From a virus, in IMG/VR virus record IMGVR_UViG_3300037189_014320, positions 1-20,101 of that record: 20,101 nt of DNA, one strand, 5' to 3'. Both the position numbers and the translations under genes were made by a program. Below the pieces are notes generated by a model. It worked only from the letters and a program-made list of their open reading frames with translations. It was not told the DNA's origin and did not search any database. Below, in pieces: positions 1-16,663 of the stretch. Position 1 is the stretch's first letter. Each line of letters opens with the position of its first letter.

Positions 1-193
1 CCTGGATCCCGGAGAGCTCGACGAGCCTCGAGGCCCTGTCGCGTTCCGCGTCGATCCGCTTCAGCGCAGCGGCGTACCGCCCCTTCAGGCTGGAGATCTC
101 CGACCGCAGCCTGGCCAGCTCGGCGTCGGCCGCGAGCTGCGAGGCCGTGCCGGCGTCTTCGATGGCCTCATCTGTCAGTCGGCGCGAAGCCAT
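1..193 (-). CDS. Partial N-terminus of an unidentified coiled-coil protein
   Basis: The ATG lies at 191-193, preceded by a strong Shine-Dalgarno (AAGGAG, 7 bases upstream), and the frame stays open to the window edge, giving 64 codons with no stop. The visible part starts MASRRLTDEAIEDAG and continues as a charged helix rich in Ala, Arg, Leu and Glu (about residues 24-60) that looks like a coiled coil. It overlaps the end of the preceding 84-aa gene by 19 bases. The product cannot be named from this fragment. In some phages such an N-terminal coiled coil precedes a metallophosphoesterase or other enzyme domain, but that part, if present, lies outside the window. Confidence 0.7.
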   Translation of the reverse strand, partial: MASRRLTDEAIEDAGTASQLAADAELARLRSEISSLKGRYAAALKRIDAERDRASRLVELSGIQ

Positions 194-633: not shown

Positions 634-1608
634 TCATGCCAGGTACTGCACGATGACGCAGCCAGCGCCACCGGGGTAGCTCGAGTCGAACCCGCCACCG
701 CCGTATCCCGCAGCGAAATAGCGGGCTGGCGATGTCGGAACCTTGATTCCGCCCGAGCCGAACGCAGGCTCTGTACTACAGTCCTCGGTGGTCTTCAGGC
801 CGCAGGCCGCCGCCGCAGCCAGCACGCCGCCGTCGTAGGTCGCGTTGAGCGGCACACGTTTGCACGGCGACACGGCGCGCTCTTCCTTGTTGTCGCCGTA
901 TCCGGCCACAGCCCCGCCCAGGTACCAGCTGCTCAGGAAAATGGACCCGGTCAGGAACTGCCAGTTCGCGCCGTTGTTGCTCTGTCCGCCAGAGCCGCCG
1001 TTCCGGCCGCCGTCGCCGCCGCTCCACGAGCTGGCGCTGCCGCCGCTTGGTGCTGTGACGGTTGTCCCGCGATACGTCACAGACGTGCCAGAGCTGGTAA
1101 GCGAGATCGAAGGCGACTCGTACTGCGTGTCGACAGACCACGTCTTCCACGTCAGCGCGCCAGCCGTCCCACCGGTGCCGACGGTCGAGCCAGTTCCGAC
1201 CGCCCAGACCTTTATCGAGTTGACCCAGCACGGGATCGGAATGGTGCCAGACGACGTGAATAGTTGGTGAGCGCCGCAGTTATTCAGCCACGACGCGCCG
1301 TTGAACGAGTCAGAAGCCGCCCCTGCCCCGCACGCATTCAGCGCACGAACACGAACAGCCGTCGTATCTCTGCACCACGACAACGTCGCCGTGCGAGTGC
1401 TGGACGATGTCTCCATGAGCGTCTGCCAGCCGCCCGCGCCCAACGACTCGACGCGGTATCCCGTAAGTGGCCGCGTGCCTGTGCTGTCCGGCTCGTCCCA
1501 TGCGATCGAGCCTGAAGCGCAATCCGTGCTCAGGCTGGACTGTCGGATATTCAGCGGCGCGCTCGGCACGATGCACGCGCGACACGGAAATCCCAGGTGG
1601 CCTTTCAA
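634..1608 (-). CDS. Terminal tail fibre with fibronectin III-like and glycine-rich domains (candidate receptor-binding protein)
   Basis: This is a 324-aa protein. I chose the TTG start at 1606-1608 because it overlaps the preceding stop as TTGA and has GGAG at the right distance; the first ATG in frame lies far inside the upstream gene. Residues about 14-102 resemble a fibronectin III domain (PSAPLN start, W37, TGYRVESL at 49-56, and VRVRALNACGAG near the end). Residues about 131-324 are Gly/Ser/Thr-rich, beginning IKVWAVGTG and ending GGGGFDSSYPGGAGCVIVQY, a pattern of glycine-rich tail-fibre tip domains. There are 11 cysteines spread along the protein. As the last gene of the tail module, after a collagen-like fibre, it is a good candidate for host recognition. 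That role is inferred from position and composition. Confidence 0.8.
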   Translation of the reverse strand: MKGHLGFPCRACIVPSAPLNIRQSSLSTDCASGSIAWDEPDSTGTRPLTGYRVESLGAGGWQTLMETSSSTRTATLSWCRDTTAVRVRALNACGAGAASDSFNGASWLNNCGAHQLFTSSGTIPIPCWVNSIKVWAVGTGSTVGTGGTAGALTWKTWSVDTQYESPSISLTSSGTSVTYRGTTVTAPSGGSASSWSGGDGGRNGGSGGQSNNGANWQFLTGSIFLSSWYLGGAVAGYGDNKEERAVSPCKRVPLNATYDGGVLAAAAACGLKTTEDCSTEPAFGSGGIKVPTSPARYFAAGYGGGGFDSSYPGGAGCVIVQYLA

Positions 1609-2660
1609 GCTAGATCTCCGACCAGCAGCCACGAGTTGGAGCCGAGGTACACAAGAGACGCACCTGATCCCGTGGCGCGAAACGACGCGGACGGGGTGGC
1701 GGTAATGGTCACGCCTGACGCCCCAGCCACCGTCAACGCAGCCACGCCGATGCGCGCGATGTCGATATGCGACCCAGCCACCCACGACACGGACGAGCTC
1801 GCCGGCACAGTGATCGTGAGCGTTCCGCTCGACGCCGAAAACGTCAGCAGCGTTCCAACGTCGGAAAGCTGGAGCGTGTAGTTGGCGGTTTTTGCGCTGA
1901 GAGTTTGCGGATCGCCAAACGACCCAGCATCGCCTCGCGGAATCGTCAACGAAAGAGTCTGCGTCGGTGCCGTTCCGGTAATCGTGGCCGACGCAGAAGA
2001 TCCAGCGGCTCCAGTCGTGACAGTTCCGATCGACAAACTGTTAGCAGAGCCGGCAGAGCCGGCAGAGCCGGCAGAGCCGGCGGCCCCTGTATTGCCGCGC
2101 GGAATTGTAAGGTTCAACGTCTGCGACGGCGGATCGCCTGTTATCTCTGCCGACGCAGAAGAACCGGCTGCGCCCGTCGTCACAGTGCCGATCGAAAGCG
2201 AATTAGCAGAGCCGCCCGACCCAGACGCAGCCGGAATCACGAGAGATAACGTTTGATTCGGCGCCGCCCCTGTGAGCGTTGCCGACGCAGTCGTGCCGCT
2301 CGTCACGGTTCCGATCGATAGAGTCGTTGCCGGCCCTGATGGGCCTTGCGGGCCAGTAGCGCCAACGTCTCCTCGCGGAATCGTGAAATCGAGCGTGACG
2401 TTGTTGCCGTTGTTGCTCGACTTCGCCGACACGCTGGCCGAGCTGCCTGCGGAGCCGGTCGTCACTGTGCCGACAGCTATCGCTGTGGCTGGCGACCCCT
2501 GCGGACCAGTCGGTCCAATGCCGCCAGGCGTCCCTGCCAGCGATGCCGTGATCGTGTACGCCGACGACGACGCGCCAACGGCCACGCCGACAGTGTCGCC
2601 GGTTGTGGCGGTGACGTTTGGCCCGCTCTGGCCGTTGACGGTAACGGTGATGTCGCTCAT
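1605..2660 (-). CDS. Collagen-like tail fibre protein
   Basis: This is a 351-aa protein starting at ATG 2658-2660, overlapping the preceding stop as ATGA. The N-terminus (1-43) is beta-type (MSDITVTVNGQSGPNVTATT). Short collagen-like Gly-X-Y runs follow at about 45-57 (PGGIGPTGPQGSP), 97-110 (GDVGATGPQGPSGP) and 189-205 (GSA repeats). They separate four copies of a module of about 30-35 residues, IGTVTTGAAGSSASA...QTLSLTIPRG, beginning near 62, 115, 157 and 210. Residues 250-351 form a different C-terminal domain (ANYTLQLSDVG...LGSNSWLLVGD) of a kind common at the ends of phage fibres. It is probably a trimeric shaft connecting the tail tip to the terminal fibre protein encoded next. Confidence 0.88.
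   Translation of the reverse strand: MSDITVTVNGQSGPNVTATTGDTVGVAVGASSSAYTITASLAGTPGGIGPTGPQGSPATAIAVGTVTTGSAGSSASVSAKSSNNGNNVTLDFTIPRGDVGATGPQGPSGPATTLSIGTVTSGTTASATLTGAAPNQTLSLVIPAASGSGGSANSLSIGTVTTGAAGSSASAEITGDPPSQTLNLTIPRGNTGAAGSAGSAGSAGSANSLSIGTVTTGAAGSSASATITGTAPTQTLSLTIPRGDAGSFGDPQTLSAKTANYTLQLSDVGTLLTFSASSGTLTITVPASSSVSWVAGSHIDIARIGVAALTVAGASGVTITATPSASFRATGSGASLVYLGSNSWLLVGDLA
1932..2477 (-). repeat. Four imperfect protein-level repeats in the collagen-like fibre gene
   Basis: Four diverged copies of a coding module with the consensus (S)IGTVTTGAAGSSASA-x-ITG-x-x-P-x-QTL-x-LTIPRG lie at roughly residues 62-97, 115-144, 157-189 and 210-243 of the fibre. The last two are nearly identical in protein sequence; the first two are more diverged. 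Copies are separated by collagen-like or Gly/Ser linkers. This looks like duplication of a beta-strand fibre module within the gene. Confidence 0.85.
2044..2079. repeat. Perfect 9-bp tandem repeat, four copies
   Basis: The unit gcagagccg (+ strand) occurs four times head to tail. On the coding strand it specifies GSA triplets in a Gly-Ser-Ala linker of the collagen-like fibre. Because the unit is a multiple of three, slipped-strand changes in copy number would lengthen or shorten the linker without breaking the frame. Confidence 0.95.
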
Positions 2661-8468: not shown

Positions 8469-8858
8469 TTAGTCGAAGCCTGTGAACTGGAACGTGGCGG
8501 CCCACTGGATCAGCTCGCCCCGCGCCAGCTCGGCGTCGAGGGACGAGCAGAAGGCCTGCCCAGAAAACGTCTTTCCGTCGGCCCAGGTTGCGACGAGCGT
8601 GCCAGGCCCGCCGATGTCCGTCTTCGCCAGGCTAGGCGAGCCGATGAACCTGGCGGTGATGGTGCCTGGCTCGATGCTCGTGCAGTTGTACTGCTTGACT
8701 ACGCGAGCGCTCTGGCCGGAGCCGACGACCTGCGACCTGAAACTCGTGACCTCGTGAACGTTCCCGGCAGTGACCGACGGCGAGAACCCTTGAAGGACGC
8801 CGAGGTACGTTCCACGAAACGTTATGTTCGCTCCCTGGCTGTCGGGGACGTCCGGCAC
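8469..8858 (-). CDS. Major tail protein paralogue B
   Basis: This is a 129-aa protein with a GTG start at 8856-8858 and GGGGGTGA just upstream. It shares with the gene before it the start MPD-x-x-DSQG, a central TIT-x-x-x-x-G strand and the end GQAFC-x-x-x-x-x-L-x-A-x-x-GEL followed by a x-F-x-x-TG strand, so the two are tandem paralogues. Both are small beta-rich proteins in the position of the tail tube gene, directly before the tail chaperones. The pair may build a tube from two subunits, or one may form a tail-end ring; the sequence does not decide. It is short for a tail tube protein. Confidence 0.75.
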   Translation of the reverse strand: MPDVPDSQGANITFRGTYLGVLQGFSPSVTAGNVHEVTSFRSQVVGSGQSARVVKQYNCTSIEPGTITARFIGSPSLAKTDIGGPGTLVATWADGKTFSGQAFCSSLDAELARGELIQWAATFQFTGFD

Positions 8859-8873
8859 GGCTCACCCCCAGGT

Positions 8874-9215
8874 TCAGCCGGTCAGCTTGAACGACGCCGT
8901 CCCGACGAGCAATTCTCCTACAGCCGCGGTGAGCTCGAACTCTTCGCAGAACGCCTGGCCACTGATTCCGAGCGTGCTGCACGAGATCGCGTACTTGGAG
9001 CCTCGAGGAGGGGCGGTCGTCCCCCAGTATTCGCAGGTGATCGTATCGCCGTCGTCCAGCGGTGCCTGCTGAAAGACGCGAGTCGAGCCAGCAGTGGCCG
9101 ACAGTGGGGTAACGTCGATCGTCGGACGCGACCGCTTCACCTTCACGTTCTTCGCCACAAACGTGACGGAGTTGAAGCTAAACGTCGTTCCCTGGGAGTC
9201 TGCGATGTCGGGCAT
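8874..9215 (-). CDS. Major tail protein paralogue A
   Basis: This is a 113-aa protein from ATG 9213-9215 with AGGAGT about 8 bases upstream. The start MPDIADSQGTTFSFNSVTF is followed by beta segments (VKVKRSRPTIDVTPLSATAG, DGDTITCEYWG) and the end GISGQAFCEEFELTAAVGEL. This end is shared with the next gene (8469-8858). Tail tube proteins typically have such an Ig-like or beta-sandwich pattern with polar strands and a T-x-L-x-A-x-x-GE-x-x-x-x-x-x-F ending. It follows the tail terminator gene by three bases, as expected for the first tail tube gene. Confidence 0.75.
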   Translation of the reverse strand: MPDIADSQGTTFSFNSVTFVAKNVKVKRSRPTIDVTPLSATAGSTRVFQQAPLDDGDTITCEYWGTTAPPRGSKYAISCSTLGISGQAFCEEFELTAAVGELLVGTASFKLTG

Positions 9216-12587: not shown

Positions 12588-12619
12588 CTACGGTAGAACT
12601 TTTGCCGGGCATCGCCCGG
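12585..12619 (-). other. Two adjacent inverted repeats at the end of the cassette
   Basis: Two inverted repeats are next to each other: CCGGGC-ATC-GCCCGG (12605-12619, 6-bp stem, 3-base loop) and GTTCTAC-G-GTAGAAC (12585-12599, palindromic DNA; as RNA a 5-bp stem with 5-base loop). They overlap the last codons of the 99-aa gene. There is no U-tract, so a standard terminator is not supported. Confidence 0.5.
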
Positions 12620-12887
12620 ACGAACACGCGCCGCACGAGCAGCGTACGTATCCACCGTCGGGCCTGTAGATGCGGCCCGTGCCGCCGCACTTCTCGCACG
12701 CGGCCGCCTTCGGCTTCTGCTCGAGCTGCGGCGGCGCCGGTTCAGGCGGCGGCGCCGGCTCCTTGGCCATGGCCGCATAGGCCACGGTCACGCAGCCGGC
12801 ACCTCGAGCACGCTCGGCGGCCATGTCGGCCGGATCGCTCGAGGTAGCCGCCAGCATCCAGAGCAGCCAATGCCACAGGGCGTGCAT
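12588..12887 (-). CDS. Small zinc-motif protein with hydrophobic N-terminus
   Basis: This is a 99-aa protein from ATG 12885-12887, directly after the preceding stop (TAG ATG), with GAGG upstream. Residues 3-15 are hydrophobic (ALWHWLLWMLAAT), possibly a membrane segment or signal. A Pro-rich linker (PPPEPAPPQ) leads to a cysteine cluster, ACEKCGGTGRIYRPDGGYVR followed by CSCGACSSGRC (C64, C67, C83, C85, C88, C93). CEKCGGTG matches the CxxCxGxG pattern of DnaJ-type zinc domains. It is the last cassette gene before the capsid gene. Function is unknown; a membrane-bound zinc protein is one reading. Confidence 0.72.
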   Translation of the reverse strand: MHALWHWLLWMLAATSSDPADMAAERARGAGCVTVAYAAMAKEPAPPPEPAPPQLEQKPKAAACEKCGGTGRIYRPDGGYVRCSCGACSSGRCPAKVLP

Positions 12888-13169
12888 CTACCACCTCGCG
12901 TTATCGAGGACCTGGTGGCCGTCGACGCCGATCGTCGCGTGGGCGAACTGCACCTCGTCGGCATCGGGCGGAGCCGGCTCGAAGACCCACAGGGCAGCCA
13001 GGCCGAACTTCGCCGCGACCTGGGCGACTCTTGCCAGGAACCGCAGGACCGGGCGCTCGGGCCGCGGCGGCGTGGGGCGGATCGGAGACTCTGGCGCAGT
13101 TGCCAGCCACCACGTCGCGCCAGCCAGGACGACGGCGGCAACGATCAGCTTCTTCTGGTCAGGTCGCAT
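12888..13169 (-). CDS. Small membrane protein, function unknown
   Basis: This is a 93-aa protein from ATG 13167-13169, overlapping the GlsB-like gene by 11 bases. It has an N-terminal membrane segment at about 8-24 (LIVAAVVLAGATWWLAT), a Pro/Arg-rich stretch (PIRPTPPRPERP), a second amphipathic or hydrophobic segment at about 41-64 (VLRFLARVAQVAAKFGLAAL) and a short acidic tail. A charged MRPDQKK N-terminus suggests the cytoplasmic side is N-terminal. It is part of the envelope cassette and could be a holin-like or accessory protein, but the sequence does not show which. Confidence 0.72.
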   Translation of the reverse strand: MRPDQKKLIVAAVVLAGATWWLATAPESPIRPTPPRPERPVLRFLARVAQVAAKFGLAALWVFEPAPPDADEVQFAHATIGVDGHQVLDNARW

Positions 13170-13395
13170 CTGATTCACTCCACAGCCGGTACAGGTACAG
13201 GACGACGCATGCCCCGACGATCGATCCGACGACGCCGGCCGGGCCTTGTCCGAACGGCAGGCCGCCGGCGATCGAGCCGAGCACGCCGACGCCGATCGTC
13301 GGGATCCAGCCGGCCGGGACGTTCGCCGGCACGATGGCCTTTGCCACGCCGCCGGCAATCGCCCCCAGTAATGCCCAGTAGACGAGCGAGATCAT
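13159..13395 (-). CDS. GlsB/YeaQ/YmgE-like small integral membrane protein
   Basis: This is a 78-aa protein from ATG 13393-13395 (ATGA overlap with the peptidase stop). It reads MISLVYWALLGAIAGGVAKA, then GWIPTIGVGVLGSIAGGLPF, then GVVGSIVGACVVLYLYRL. These three glycine-rich membrane segments fit the GlsB/YeaQ/YmgE (transglycosylase-associated) family in size and pattern. The family's function is poorly understood. Directly downstream of a membrane-anchored peptidase, a role as a pore- or holin-like partner is a reasonable guess. Confidence 0.75.
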   Translation of the reverse strand: MISLVYWALLGAIAGGVAKAIVPANVPAGWIPTIGVGVLGSIAGGLPFGQGPAGVVGSIVGACVVLYLYRLWSESDAT

Positions 13396-14489
13396 TTATC
13401 CCCCTTGGCCATCCAGCCGTCGTTTACGAGTTCGCGGGCCTTGAACCCGTCGACCGATCCGATCACGAACGAGTCGCCCTGCGCCAGGATCGCCTCGGCG
13501 TCTCCGCGTGTGATCCAGAACGAGCCGTCGGGCTGGTCGACGGGATGCCTGCCGCCGCGTACCCAATTCGGACCCCAGCTGTTCATCACGAGCACGCCGT
13601 CGCGCGGGTGCTGCATCGGCGTCAGCGATCCCGGCAGATTGTTCTTCGCGTACTTCACGCCGATGACAACCATGCAATGCGCCCAGCTGCCGCTCCTCTT
13701 CAGGAACCCGTCGGCGTCTCTGTCCTGGCCCTTGAACCCGATGTTCGAGCAGATCGGCACGCACAGGCCGTTTTCGAGCGCCGCCGTCAGGCCTTGCCAC
13801 GTCTCGACCAGGGCGACGGCTCGTGCCGTGTGTTGGTTCGCCTCTTTGGCGAGCTGCGGCGACACGCCACGCGCGCCCCATTCCTTGGCTCGCGGGATCT
13901 CGTACTTCGTCAGGTCGACGTCGCCGTACTTCTGGCGGTACAGGATCCCGCCGTGGCCGTTCTTCAGGCCGGCCACCCAGCGTGCCGCGGCTGCTCCGTA
14001 TGAGCCGTCGGAGTAGCCCGCGAACGTCACCGGCGGGAGCCGGCCCTCGGTCCGGCTGCCGGCGTAGATTGGCTCGGTTGCCACCTCGAGCGGCGGCTCC
14101 GCCAGGCCGCCCTGGCACCAGTCGACGCACTGGCCGACGTAGCTTCCCATGCCCCAGCCGAACGATACACACGTCCCGATCTCGCCCTGGTTCCATGGCC
14201 CGTAGGGCGTGCCGTAGCGCGCCTGGTGGGCTCTTTCGGCGTAGCGGTACAGGTAGGCGTCTCGCCCCTTCGCGGCCGCCAGGACGTCCGGGGCGGCCTG
14301 ACGGAATGTCGGCTGCTCGAGCTCGCGGAGGAAAGCCCGCGTGCCTTCCGGGTTGGGCGTCCAGCCCATCTGGCGATCAGCGGCCCGGAGGGCCTTGTGC
14401 GTCAGGTGGTCGACGAGCGCTCCCAGGATCGCCGCGAACACGACGAACGCGACGGCGGACCACGTCCACGCTGCCTGGCGGTTGCTCAT
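13392..14489 (-). CDS. Membrane-anchored papain-like cysteine peptidase
   Basis: This is a 365-aa protein from ATG 14487-14489, joined to the preceding stop as TGATG. Residues about 8-26 form an N-terminal transmembrane anchor (WTWSAVAFVVFAAILGALV). The rest matches the papain (C1-like) fold: Q101 and C107 in NQGEIGTCVSFGWG with the exact papain spacing (Gln six residues before Cys), H271 in GSWAHCMVVIGVKY and N303 in VLVMNSWGPNW. The Cys, His and Asn of the triad and the oxyanion Gln are all present, so it should be active. It probably faces outside the inner membrane. There is no obvious propeptide, and no muramidase or amidase endolysin is seen in this window. A role in lysis or envelope breakdown is inferred, not shown. 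Confidence 0.88.
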   Translation of the reverse strand: MSNRQAAWTWSAVAFVVFAAILGALVDHLTHKALRAADRQMGWTPNPEGTRAFLRELEQPTFRQAAPDVLAAAKGRDAYLYRYAERAHQARYGTPYGPWNQGEIGTCVSFGWGMGSYVGQCVDWCQGGLAEPPLEVATEPIYAGSRTEGRLPPVTFAGYSDGSYGAAAARWVAGLKNGHGGILYRQKYGDVDLTKYEIPRAKEWGARGVSPQLAKEANQHTARAVALVETWQGLTAALENGLCVPICSNIGFKGQDRDADGFLKRSGSWAHCMVVIGVKYAKNNLPGSLTPMQHPRDGVLVMNSWGPNWVRGGRHPVDQPDGSFWITRGDAEAILAQGDSFVIGSVDGFKARELVNDGWMAKGDK

Positions 14490-14728
14490 CAGTCCGCCTC
14501 CTCGCCGATCCGACGCGGGATCGGCAGCGGCAGGAGCGGCGCACGGCACCGGCACTGACACGGCGGGATCGCCTCGACGGCCTGCCGCAGCTCGCGGACC
14601 TCCTGGCGGATGGCCAGCAAGATCGCCGGGCAGGCCCCGGCCGAGATCAAGAGCACGACGCAGGCCAGCACTGTCAGCGCGTAGACGCCGTTGTCGATGA
14701 ATTCCCACAGCCAGTCGGCCCAGCTCAT
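14489..14728 (-). CDS. Small single-span membrane protein with helical and Cys-rich tail
   Basis: This is a 79-aa protein from ATG 14726-14728 (ATGA overlap). A membrane segment at about 17-40 (YALTVLACVVLLISAGACPAILL) follows an aromatic start (MSWADWLWEFIDNG). A charged helix (RQEVRELRQAVEA) and PPCQCRCRAPLLPLP come next, then an acidic end. The layout (one TM then a helix) resembles i-spanin or holin-accessory proteins, but the family cannot be determined. It immediately precedes the papain-like peptidase. Confidence 0.75.
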   Translation of the reverse strand: MSWADWLWEFIDNGVYALTVLACVVLLISAGACPAILLAIRQEVRELRQAVEAIPPCQCRCRAPLLPLPIPRRIGEEAD

Positions 14729-15177
14729 CGGACGGCCTCCTCGGCCGCCCTGGCCAGCTCCCGGAACGCCTCGACCCACGCAGTCCGCGACGTCTCCGAC
14801 AGCGGCCCGCCGCTCTTGCCGACAACCTCGTCGAGGTACTTTCCGATCGCCGCCTTGGCGTGCGGCTGGCGTTCACGCAGCGGCACCGGCGAGAACCGGA
14901 ACTCGCTGGCAGCCGTCCGCAGGTCCTCGAGCTGGAGGCCTGTCGAGATCCGCGGCGATCCAGACTTGCCGTCGAGCTCGAGGGCGTCGGCCACGGCGGC
15001 ACAGACGCCGGCGAACGACGCGGCGTCGGCGGCCGCCTCGGATCCGATGAACTTGCCGCGGAGATTCAGCCCGCCGTCGTTTGGCGGCACCACGGTCGAC
15101 CGCGGCCAGAACTCGACGGCGGCCGCCACGGCGGCGCCGGCCAGCAGGGCAGCGACAAGGATTGTCCGCTGATTCAT
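14725..15177 (-). CDS. Membrane-anchored or exported protein, function unknown
   Basis: This is a 150-aa protein from ATG 15175-15177 (ATGA overlap). The N-terminus MNQRTILVAALLAGAAVAAA (about 5-21) is a signal peptide or anchor. The remaining ~125 residues form a soluble domain: SEAAADAASFAGVCAAVADA, LQLEDLRTAASEFRFSP, AIGKYLDEVVGK and AWVEAFRELARAAEEAV. These are mainly amphipathic helices. I recognise no catalytic motif. Together with the next gene (15174-15452), which has the same anchor-plus-helices plan, it could be one of a spanin-like or envelope-spanning pair. Confidence 0.75.
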   Translation of the reverse strand: MNQRTILVAALLAGAAVAAAVEFWPRSTVVPPNDGGLNLRGKFIGSEAAADAASFAGVCAAVADALELDGKSGSPRISTGLQLEDLRTAASEFRFSPVPLRERQPHAKAAIGKYLDEVVGKSGGPLSETSRTAWVEAFRELARAAEEAVR

Positions 15178-15452
15178 TTCCGCTGGCTCCCGTGCAACAG
15201 GTCGAGCCACAGCGTGTCGACGGCCTTCGCAGAGTCCTCGTCCAGGGCGTCGGTGGCCGCGAGCCGGTCACGCACGGCCAGCAGCGAGTCGATCGCGGCC
15301 CGCGGGTCCGGGGCCGGGGCGGCGGCCGCCGGCACCTGGGGCGGGACGCGGAACAAATCATCTGCCGCAGAAATCTTTGGCAGAGGATTCGTAACGCCAC
15401 GCGGCCAGAACAGGTAGGCCAGCGCGGCGACGACGAGCAGGGCGGTGATCAT
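15174..15452 (-). CDS. Small membrane-anchored protein, function unknown
   Basis: This is a 92-aa protein from ATG 15450-15452 (ATGA overlap). The N-terminal segment MITALLVVAALAYLFWPRG is a single membrane anchor. A Pro/Ala-rich linker (VPAAAAPAPDP) and an acidic helical C-terminus (IDSLLAVRDRLAATDALDED... ending LWLDLLHGSQRK) follow. It has no cysteines and no known motif. The tight coupling to the 119-aa and 150-aa neighbours suggests a shared role at the envelope. Confidence 0.73.
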   Translation of the reverse strand: MITALLVVAALAYLFWPRGVTNPLPKISAADDLFRVPPQVPAAAAPAPDPRAAIDSLLAVRDRLAATDALDEDSAKAVDTLWLDLLHGSQRK

Positions 15453-15808
15453 GCTTCCTGGCTCCTGGTGATTCGCAGCAGGGCCTCGACGGCGCCGGCG
15501 GCGAGCGAGAGAACGAGAACTCGGGTTGCCGGCCGGATCAGCATCCACGCCGGCCAGGCGGCCAGCGGAACGGCCTTGTCGGCAAACGAGTCGAAGAGCG
15601 CCGCCACGGCCGTCAGCGCGATCGCCTTCTTCTCCGGGCCTGTCAGGCCAGCGACGGCCTCCAGGGCTCTGACGACCAGGTACAGCAGCTCGACGAGCAT
15701 CCGGCCAAACTCGGACCACGTCAGGCCGTCCTTCGCCTTGTCGCGTGCGCCGGCCAGGAACGCGTTCACGCTGGCGGCGACTGTCGTGATCGTGTCGCTG
15801 GCGTTCAT
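15449..15808 (-). CDS. Putative holin-like membrane protein
   Basis: This is a 119-aa protein from ATG 15806-15808 (ATGA overlap). After a short polar N-terminus, WSEFGRMLVELLYLVVRALE (31-50) and GPEKKAIALTAVAALFDSFA (57-76) are amphipathic helices. Residues about 77-112 are strongly hydrophobic (AVPLAAWPAWMLIRPATRVL, VLSLAAGAVEALL), allowing one or two membrane spans. It begins the membrane part of the cassette. Size, hydrophobic pattern and context suit a holin-like protein, but no holin family is clearly recognised, so the name is tentative. Confidence 0.65.
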   Translation of the reverse strand: MNASDTITTVAASVNAFLAGARDKAKDGLTWSEFGRMLVELLYLVVRALEAVAGLTGPEKKAIALTAVAALFDSFADKAVPLAAWPAWMLIRPATRVLVLSLAAGAVEALLRITRSQEA

Positions 15809-15972
15809 CGCTTCCTCGTCCAGATCTCGGTGGCCGGCACGACACGCTTCCTGCGGGCGTGGCAGCAGCTGCATTCCAGCCGCTGCTCCTGCTCCAGGCC
15901 GACACGCCTGGAGGTGATCACGCGGCAGCGGTGGCCACAGTTGCGGCAGGCCCTACTTGATTCGGCCGACAT
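15805..15972 (-). CDS. 55-aa zinc-ribbon protein
   Basis: This short gene uses ATG 15970-15972 and ends at TGA 15805-15807, overlapping the next ATG as ATGA. Its start overlaps the end of the prohead protease by 20 bases. The protein is MSAESSRACRNCGHRCRVIT and then SRRVGLEQEQRLECSCCHARRKRVV. C9, C12 and C16 pair with C34, C36 and C37 across a short loop in the manner of a zinc ribbon (CxxC...CxC), with many arginines, so nucleic-acid binding is plausible. It is the first gene of the cassette. A GAGG lies about 10 bases upstream. The frame, the overlap and the cysteine layout make it a real gene. Confidence 0.78.
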   Translation of the reverse strand: MSAESSRACRNCGHRCRVITSRRVGLEQEQRLECSCCHARRKRVVPATEIWTRKR

Positions 15973-16663
15973 TGGCGCGGAGCCTCATGGCTGCGAGTTT
16001 GGCGGAGGCCGCCGTCAGGGCGTAGGACCAGCGGCGGCGTCTGTCTGCCTGCTCGTCTGCCACTCGCTCGGCCGCTTGCCGCTGCTCGGCCTCTGTCAGG
16101 TGATCGGCCCGCCACTGCTCGAGCGACCGCAGGGCCGCCGACGACTGCGGGTACGCGGCCCGCGTCACGATCGACACGTCCCACAGGCCGGCGACATCGG
16201 AGATCGTGCGGACCATGGTGCCGTCCGCCTCCTGGCTCCACGCCTCGCCTGTGCCGCCCTGCGGCAGCGTGAACGCGAAGCTGGCCCCGAACAGGTCGCC
16301 CCTCTTCACGAGGGTCGTAATGTCACGCCCAAGCGTCGTATCCGGCGGGTCGATGGAATACGCAAGCCCGCGATCTGTGACGTTTAGGCGGAGCGTGTCA
16401 TTCGTCGTGCGGCCGATCGGCTGGCCTGCATGATCGAATAGGGCAACAGTGTCGAGCCCGCCGCGCGGGTCGTTCCGGTGCCGGCCGACGATCTTGTCGA
16501 ACGCCGTCGGCAGAAACACCTCGCGGAAACCGCCCAGGTCCTCGCTCCGCGAATTGAACGGCGGCGAGATCCCCTTGATCAGCGGCGAGGCCGCGGACCG
16601 CTCCTCGAGCTCGATCGGCTCGACGGCAGTCGGGACGTAACGCCGCTCGACGTCATCACGCAT
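15953..16663 (-). CDS. HK97-type prohead protease
   Basis: This is a 236-aa protein from ATG 16661-16663 with GGAGG upstream, overlapping the portal stop by 8 bases. It begins VERRYVPTAVEPIELEERSA, then GISPPFNSRSEDLGGFREVF and LPTAFDKIV, as in prohead proteases of the U35 family. H78 in ALFDHAGQPIGR and S128 in GDLFGASFAFTLP are the likely catalytic residues. VAGLWDVSIVTRAAYPQSSA (158-177) is the usual conserved end of the catalytic domain, followed by an extended helical tail. It cleaves the capsid's N-terminal scaffold domain during maturation. Unusually, the capsid gene is not next; nine other genes lie between. Confidence 0.93.
   Translation of the reverse strand: MRDDVERRYVPTAVEPIELEERSAASPLIKGISPPFNSRSEDLGGFREVFLPTAFDKIVGRHRNDPRGGLDTVALFDHAGQPIGRTTNDTLRLNVTDRGLAYSIDPPDTTLGRDITTLVKRGDLFGASFAFTLPQGGTGEAWSQEADGTMVRTISDVAGLWDVSIVTRAAYPQSSAALRSLEQWRADHLTEAEQRQAAERVADEQADRRRRWSYALTAASAKLAAMRLRANVGRIK

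Follow-up and report, generated by a model that had tools for sequence, protein, structure and literature searches.

The closest described counterpart of the genes considered here is the lambda-type holin/endolysin/spanin cassette, a tight late cluster of small membrane proteins and one enzyme that is found close to the end of the tail genes or ahead of the terminase genes, once per genome. Here, we propose that eight small genes, g2-g9, of a 20,101-base viral contig (IMG/VR record IMGVR_UViG_3300037189_014320, analysed in full and called the window) probably form a mobile lysis module of tailed phages infecting Planctomycetota. The g2-g9 cassette shares the anatomy just described, and differs from the lambda-type cassette in having a papain-fold enzyme (trypsin-fold in a second version, type II), no peptidoglycan-hydrolase domain, more accessory membrane proteins and, in the window's lineage, a position between the prohead protease and capsid genes. 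In our reading g2-g9 would work like a holin-endolysin-spanin cassette, but we do not class it among them, since a search for the peptidoglycan-hydrolase domain that defines such cassettes found none.

For the enzyme itself, g6, the nearest described proteins are xylellain and other C1A peptidases, which have the same fold, the same Gln-Cys-His-Asn site and a pro-region-like N-terminal segment. Unlike these, g6 is phage-encoded, carries an N-terminal membrane anchor, belongs to a multi-gene cassette and has no Pfam C1 match at E <= 1. Cwp84, the S-layer cysteine protease of Clostridioides difficile, is likewise a papain-family enzyme (structural match to g6, Z 17.8) and acts on a surface-layer protein, but it is a host enzyme for S-layer maturation, is not phage-encoded and has other domains. 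The g6 fold is also present in tailed phages, in the BFVD Peptidase_C1 proteins of uncultured Caudovirales (e.g. A0A6J5TCZ4; Foldseek E 1e-8 to 1e-5), which are likened to g6 by fold alone, at 13-18% identity among the best matches. Among the small proteins, g7 is similar in size and hydrophobic pattern to the GlsB/YeaQ/YmgE family (Transgly_assoc, PF04226), to which it is a weak match below the curated cut-off (E 0.028, 15.1 bits against 25.3; best relative E 6.7e-5).

Layout of the window

On the minus strand the window reads TerS, TerL, portal, S78 prohead protease, nine small genes, major capsid protein, and then neck, tail and tape-measure genes. The original prediction, made from this sequence, had described nine packed genes at 12588-15972 between protease and capsid, and its coordinates and descriptions agree with ours:

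15953..16663, minus strand: S78 prohead protease, 236 amino acids (Pfam Peptidase_S78 E 1.2e-30; PHROG head maturation protease 1.6e-37); upstream boundary of the insertion
15805..15972, minus strand: g1, small zinc-ribbon protein, 55 amino acids, without family match; head-operon gene
15449..15808, minus strand: g2, hydrophobic-helix protein, 119 amino acids, with one strong and two weaker hydrophobic segments by hydropathy; holin candidate
15174..15452, minus strand: g3, N-terminal membrane anchor and short helical domain (hydropathy), 92 amino acids
14725..15177, minus strand: g4, N-terminal membrane anchor and conserved domain with a Pro-rich linker (alignment), 150 amino acids
14489..14728, minus strand: g5, single-span protein with a Cys-rich tail, 79 amino acids; membrane segment 20-38 (hydropathy)
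13392..14489, minus strand: g6, membrane-anchored papain-family (C1A) peptidase, 365 amino acids; anchor at about residues 8-26, predicted catalytic residues Q101, C107, H271, N303
13159..13395, minus strand: g7, small GlsB/YeaQ-like membrane protein, 78 amino acids, with two to three spans by hydropathy; second holin candidate
12888..13169, minus strand: g8, single-span protein (hydropathy) with a conserved RPVLR...LW...EP...W pattern (sequences), 93 amino acids
12588..12887, minus strand: g9, putatively exported Pro/Cys-rich protein with a DnaJ-like CxxCxGxG motif (sequences), 99 amino acids
11284..12504, minus strand: major capsid protein (HK97-type), 406 amino acids (Phage_capsid E 2.7e-26; PHROG major head protein 5.5e-36); downstream boundary

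Neighbouring reading frames from g1 to g9 are joined by start-stop overlaps or few-base gaps throughout. By hydropathy g2-g8 each have one or more membrane segments, seven proteins where at least six had been predicted, and most other proteins of the window have none. No protein from g1 to g9 scores above the Pfam cut-off or has a PHROG match below E 0.01, and searches of the small cassette proteins against PHROG, Pfam and INPHARED returned nothing useful. The cassette is surrounded by the structural (late) genes and runs on their strand, and a promoter-like site of its own was not found.

The cassette recurs as a unit

A search of IMG/VR with g6 gave 10 close relatives at first and then at least 361, and the g2-g9 unit, which we call type I, recurs in 146 distinct IMG/VR sequences. 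Outside the window, gene calls came from a simple home-made caller and from profile searches of six-frame open reading frames. Iterated profiles over 128 loci detected g2 in 120, g4 in 126, g6 in 125, g7 in 99, g8 in 110 and g9 in 106. In the 62 distinct type I sequences with at least 2.6 kb on either side of the peptidase (the wide-flank set), g4, g8 and g9 are each present in all 62, g2 in 60 and g7 in 40; g5, the fastest evolving gene and often absent, was detected in 11. The equivalent of g3, an N-terminal anchor, is fused to g4 in many post-tail cassettes. Between close pairs, the ratio of nonsynonymous to synonymous substitution (dN/dS) is 0.03-0.26 for cassette genes and 0.03-0.05 for g2, leaving aside one pair in which g6 was replaced and near-identical pairs without amino-acid changes. 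Because the protein families recur in order in more than 100 other contigs and dN/dS is mostly low, we regard these reading frames as real genes; they travel together, are under purifying selection and occupy interchangeable slots.

The unit has eight genes and not the nine first described. The zinc-ribbon gene g1 remains with the head genes where the cassette is elsewhere, between protease and capsid in one relative (L005) and after the protease in another (L040), so we rejected it as a cassette member and count it as a head-operon gene.

Placement and mobility

The 146 type I sequences place the cassette in the head operon (51), behind the tail genes (71), before the terminase genes (6) or among uninformative flanks (18), counts that are biased by the queries, several scans having begun from the capsid, g2 or a gene labelled DNMK. 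The 71 post-tail and 6 pre-terminase cassettes thus stand at the canonical lysis location, and the head-embedded cassette of the window does not. Post-tail cassettes usually follow a metallophosphoesterase gene and DNMK. A 34.9-kb full contig of the window's lineage with a head-embedded cassette (G001) has the metallophosphoesterase, the deoxynucleoside monophosphate (dNMP)-kinase-like DNMK gene and then, directly, an integrase, which stands where the post-tail relatives of this contig have the cassette. An integrase likewise fills the slot behind DNMK in G804 and G805, which have exactly one peptidase, elsewhere. It would appear that in the window's lineage the module left its usual near-tail place and came to lie between the prohead protease and capsid genes of the head operon.

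That placement is unusual. As had been supposed, the protease normally adjoins the capsid gene: the two are adjacent, or have only g1 between them, in four relatives whose cassette is elsewhere (L005, G006, G008, G009). No relative was seen that lacks the cassette and carries a full lysis module elsewhere; relatives have this cassette at another position or hold a cassette of a second type in its slot. The tie of lysis to head gene expression, which the original prediction would draw from this placement, is not a special feature: lambda likewise has its lysis, head and tail genes on a single late transcript.

Two further observations concern placement. The start of a metallophosphoesterase gene (window 2-193, minus strand) ends the tail module of the window, the contig being cut inside the gene. 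In a prophage of a different type (in G339), a distant g6 homologue (L254:9172-10242) lies between capsid-side and neck-side genes, an independent head-region placement.

A second cassette type and exchange of the enzyme

Type II cassettes consist of g2, proteins of 94, 79 and 131 amino acids, a 291-amino-acid protein, a 274-amino-acid protein in which a g9-like exported CxxCxG module precedes a trypsin-like protease (Trypsin_2, E 8e-20), and membrane proteins of 111 and 99 amino acids. Examples are L217:4276-7889 and L321-L396, and there are at least 112 relatives in IMG/VR. In 62 distinct sequences the type II cassette is head-embedded in 32, post-tail in 5 and of uninformative placement in 25. 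Types I and II occur together at no locus, and g2 is common to both (60 of 62 type I and 25 of 27 type II wide-flank loci). The 291-amino-acid protein was considered as a g6 homologue; it has conserved Gln, Cys and His without a confirmed fold, and is not called papain-like because a profile comparison with g6 gave no support.

The enzyme also appears to be exchanged within type I. Between L087 and L012 the g6 proteins are 54% identical, the other compared cassette proteins 88-98% and the capsid proteins 93%, a pattern that by sequence comparison is one of replacement of the enzyme alone. That two unrelated protease types share the same slot suggests a protein substrate; to our knowledge, the trypsin-like fold acts on protein substrates only.

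The g6 peptidase

AlphaFold2 modelling of g6 reached a mean predicted local distance difference test score (pLDDT) of 45.7 with nine close sequences and of 92.9 with 50. The top structural match of the model is xylellain (Z 22.8 over 244 residues, root-mean-square deviation 3.0, 18% identity), followed by procathepsins and propapain (Z 18-20) and by papain-family enzymes. Q101, C107, H271 and N303 are invariant in 50 g6 homologues, down to those of Mucilaginibacter at 34% identity, and the Gln-Cys-His-Asn order, the Q-x5-C spacing and the NSW around Asn are all present. Searched against the PDB, the g6 profile retrieved papain-family chains only, weakly (best E 0.017). The model thus gives g6 a papain-family (C1A) protease fold behind an N-terminal membrane anchor, and g6 is presumably active as a peptidase. 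Alignment to zymogen structures begins at about residue 27-33, which is only a hint of a pro-region in the modelled protein. The substrate could be a wall protein, a peptidoglycan peptide or something else, a range left wide because the papain-family assignment is by fold. A signal-arrest-release (SAR)-type anchor was considered for g6, and the segment resembles an ordinary signal anchor, though not decisively.

Among INPHARED phages, tblastn found no g6 homologue. Mucilaginibacter chromosomes contain a standalone homologue without the anchor, at 34-35% identity and with no recognised phage genes nearby (L149:8986-9909, L150:8986-9897). In one locus (L272, in G813) the peptidase gene is in two pieces, by frameshift or assembly error.

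Small proteins and the search for another lysis enzyme

By their hydrophobic segments g2 and g7 are holin candidates, and neither matched a holin family; g4 belongs to no Pfam or PHROG family. No known peptidoglycan-hydrolase domain was found in the window's cassette with Pfam and PHROG, nor any peptidoglycan-hydrolase family in Pfam scans of the large genomes G001, G007 and G009, which bear the cassette, among the families listed (25 each for two genomes). In targeted searches Amidase_2 was sought in 15 records, SLT and Peptidase_M15_4 in 40, and Phage_lysozyme and CHAP in 31, with no match above cut-off and one CHAP fragment below it. Of 34 records, 26 had a single peptidase gene per genome (one copy being in two pieces), and the rest were mostly short, truncated or type II.

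Hosts

Thirteen of the 392 Planctomycetota genomes scanned have a g6 homologue, as does one of 395 Bacteroidota genomes, the centre genome itself. A contig of a Planctomycetota metagenome-assembled genome bears the cassette, and in the large chromosomal contigs G139 and G357 prophages carry g2, g6 and g9 beside terminase and portal genes, the one in G139 also having g4. The genome matches and chromosomal prophages point to Planctomycetota as hosts. A Bacteroidota host is not indicated, the Mucilaginibacter homologues being standalone, without anchor or cassette. Relatives of g2 and g6 were not detected among 50,697 deposited phage genomes.

Proposed role and alternatives

What might the role of g2-g9 be? 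We infer a lysis role from the anatomy of the cassette: it shares its slots with a second cassette type, moves as a unit, swaps its enzyme, is present in one copy per genome and is accompanied by no other recognised lysis enzyme in the genomes searched. The original prediction of a lysis or envelope cassette in the head operon remains the best reading of the evidence, for eight genes. Late in infection, g2 and/or g7 would permeabilise or depolarise the inner membrane in a holin role. Anchored g6 is probably exposed on the periplasmic side, may be synthesised as a zymogen, and would cut what bears stress in the wall, whether cross-linked wall proteins or the peptides of peptidoglycan. The likewise anchored g3, g4, g5 and g8 and the exported Cys-rich g9 may help to disrupt or connect wall and outer membrane in a spanin-like manner.

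Several points weigh against a lysis module. Papain-family enzymes cleave ordinary peptide bonds. No recognisable holin or endolysin family was found among the cassette proteins in Pfam and PHROG searches. A lipobox, as borne by lipoprotein outer spanins, was not seen by eye in any window protein, and single-component spanins would escape such a reading. A role in the head or virion would also agree with how often the cassette lies in the head operon, and another lysis enzyme could be missing or unrecognised because the records are linear contigs of unestablished completeness. Finally, peptidoglycan is of importance too in planctomycetes, whose sacculi are dissolved by lysozyme (PMC4432640).

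A broader version of the lysis reading, which we advance tentatively, is that exported or membrane-anchored proteases, in two interchangeable versions (papain-type and trypsin-type), cut a protein-reinforced wall in place of peptidoglycan hydrolases and are widespread in Planctomycetota phages. Planctomycete walls were long described as proteinaceous, and peptidoglycan was shown later (PMC4432640). P. limnophila can do without several genes of peptidoglycan synthesis, and the rigidity of the planctomycete wall is believed to depend on cysteine-rich YTV proteins (PMC10632474).

A sub-case compatible with a lysis module, though somewhat doubtful, is that g6 is a papain-fold endopeptidase acting on peptidoglycan peptides, which would make the cassette a standard holin-endolysin-spanin cassette with a divergent endolysin. 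Papain-like folds such as CHAP are indeed common in endolysins (PMC10318531), and Foldseek matches g6 to phage proteins of this fold whose annotation is muramidase or peptidoglycan-binding, but the closest structures to g6 are true peptidases (xylellain, cathepsins, papain) and not CHAP or NlpC/P60, and type II has a trypsin-like protease module in the position of g6.

We consider it unlikely that the genes form an envelope-remodelling or lysogeny module, whose protease and membrane proteins would serve to exclude superinfecting phages, change the surface of the host or let virions out without lysis, and would not be the main lysis machinery. The many small membrane proteins and the temperate nature of the phage (integrase in G001) would suit such a role, as would the reported release without lysis of the planctomycete phage ZRK32 (PMC10945688), though the ZRK32 record, which lacks the cassette, carries little weight because it is partial and unverified. 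The cassette, however, is inside the late structural block, on the same strand and without a promoter-like site of its own, not in a separate lysogeny region, and there is one peptidase gene per genome and no other recognised lysis enzyme. Least probable, and quite improbable, is a head or virion module, in which the protease and the anchored proteins would act in assembly, inside the head or at entry and lie near the S78 protease by chance: the head-embedded cassettes (51 type I and 32 type II sequences) and the G339 prophage homologue would fit it, but 77 type I sequences have the cassette post-tail or pre-terminase, the head types that accompany it are unrelated (lambda-type portal in G007, phrog_21-type portal in prophage G139), N-terminal anchors and an exported protein are unfit for an internal head role, and maturation is already served by the S78 protease.

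Other features of the window

Two consecutive small tail-region proteins, d6 and d7 (window 8874-9215 and 8469-8858), cross-match each other's profile in relatives, which suggests a duplicated tail protein. A putative tail fibre protein (window 1605-2660, minus strand) has collagen-like Gly-x-y repeats.

Significance

Our literature searches found no description of a lysis mechanism for planctomycete phages. The g2-g9 module, with almost no relatives in Pfam and PHROGs, supplies concrete candidate genes for that process. If the proteases are the lytic enzymes, they would represent a lysin class of a new kind and could serve to probe the load-bearing material in the planctomycete wall.

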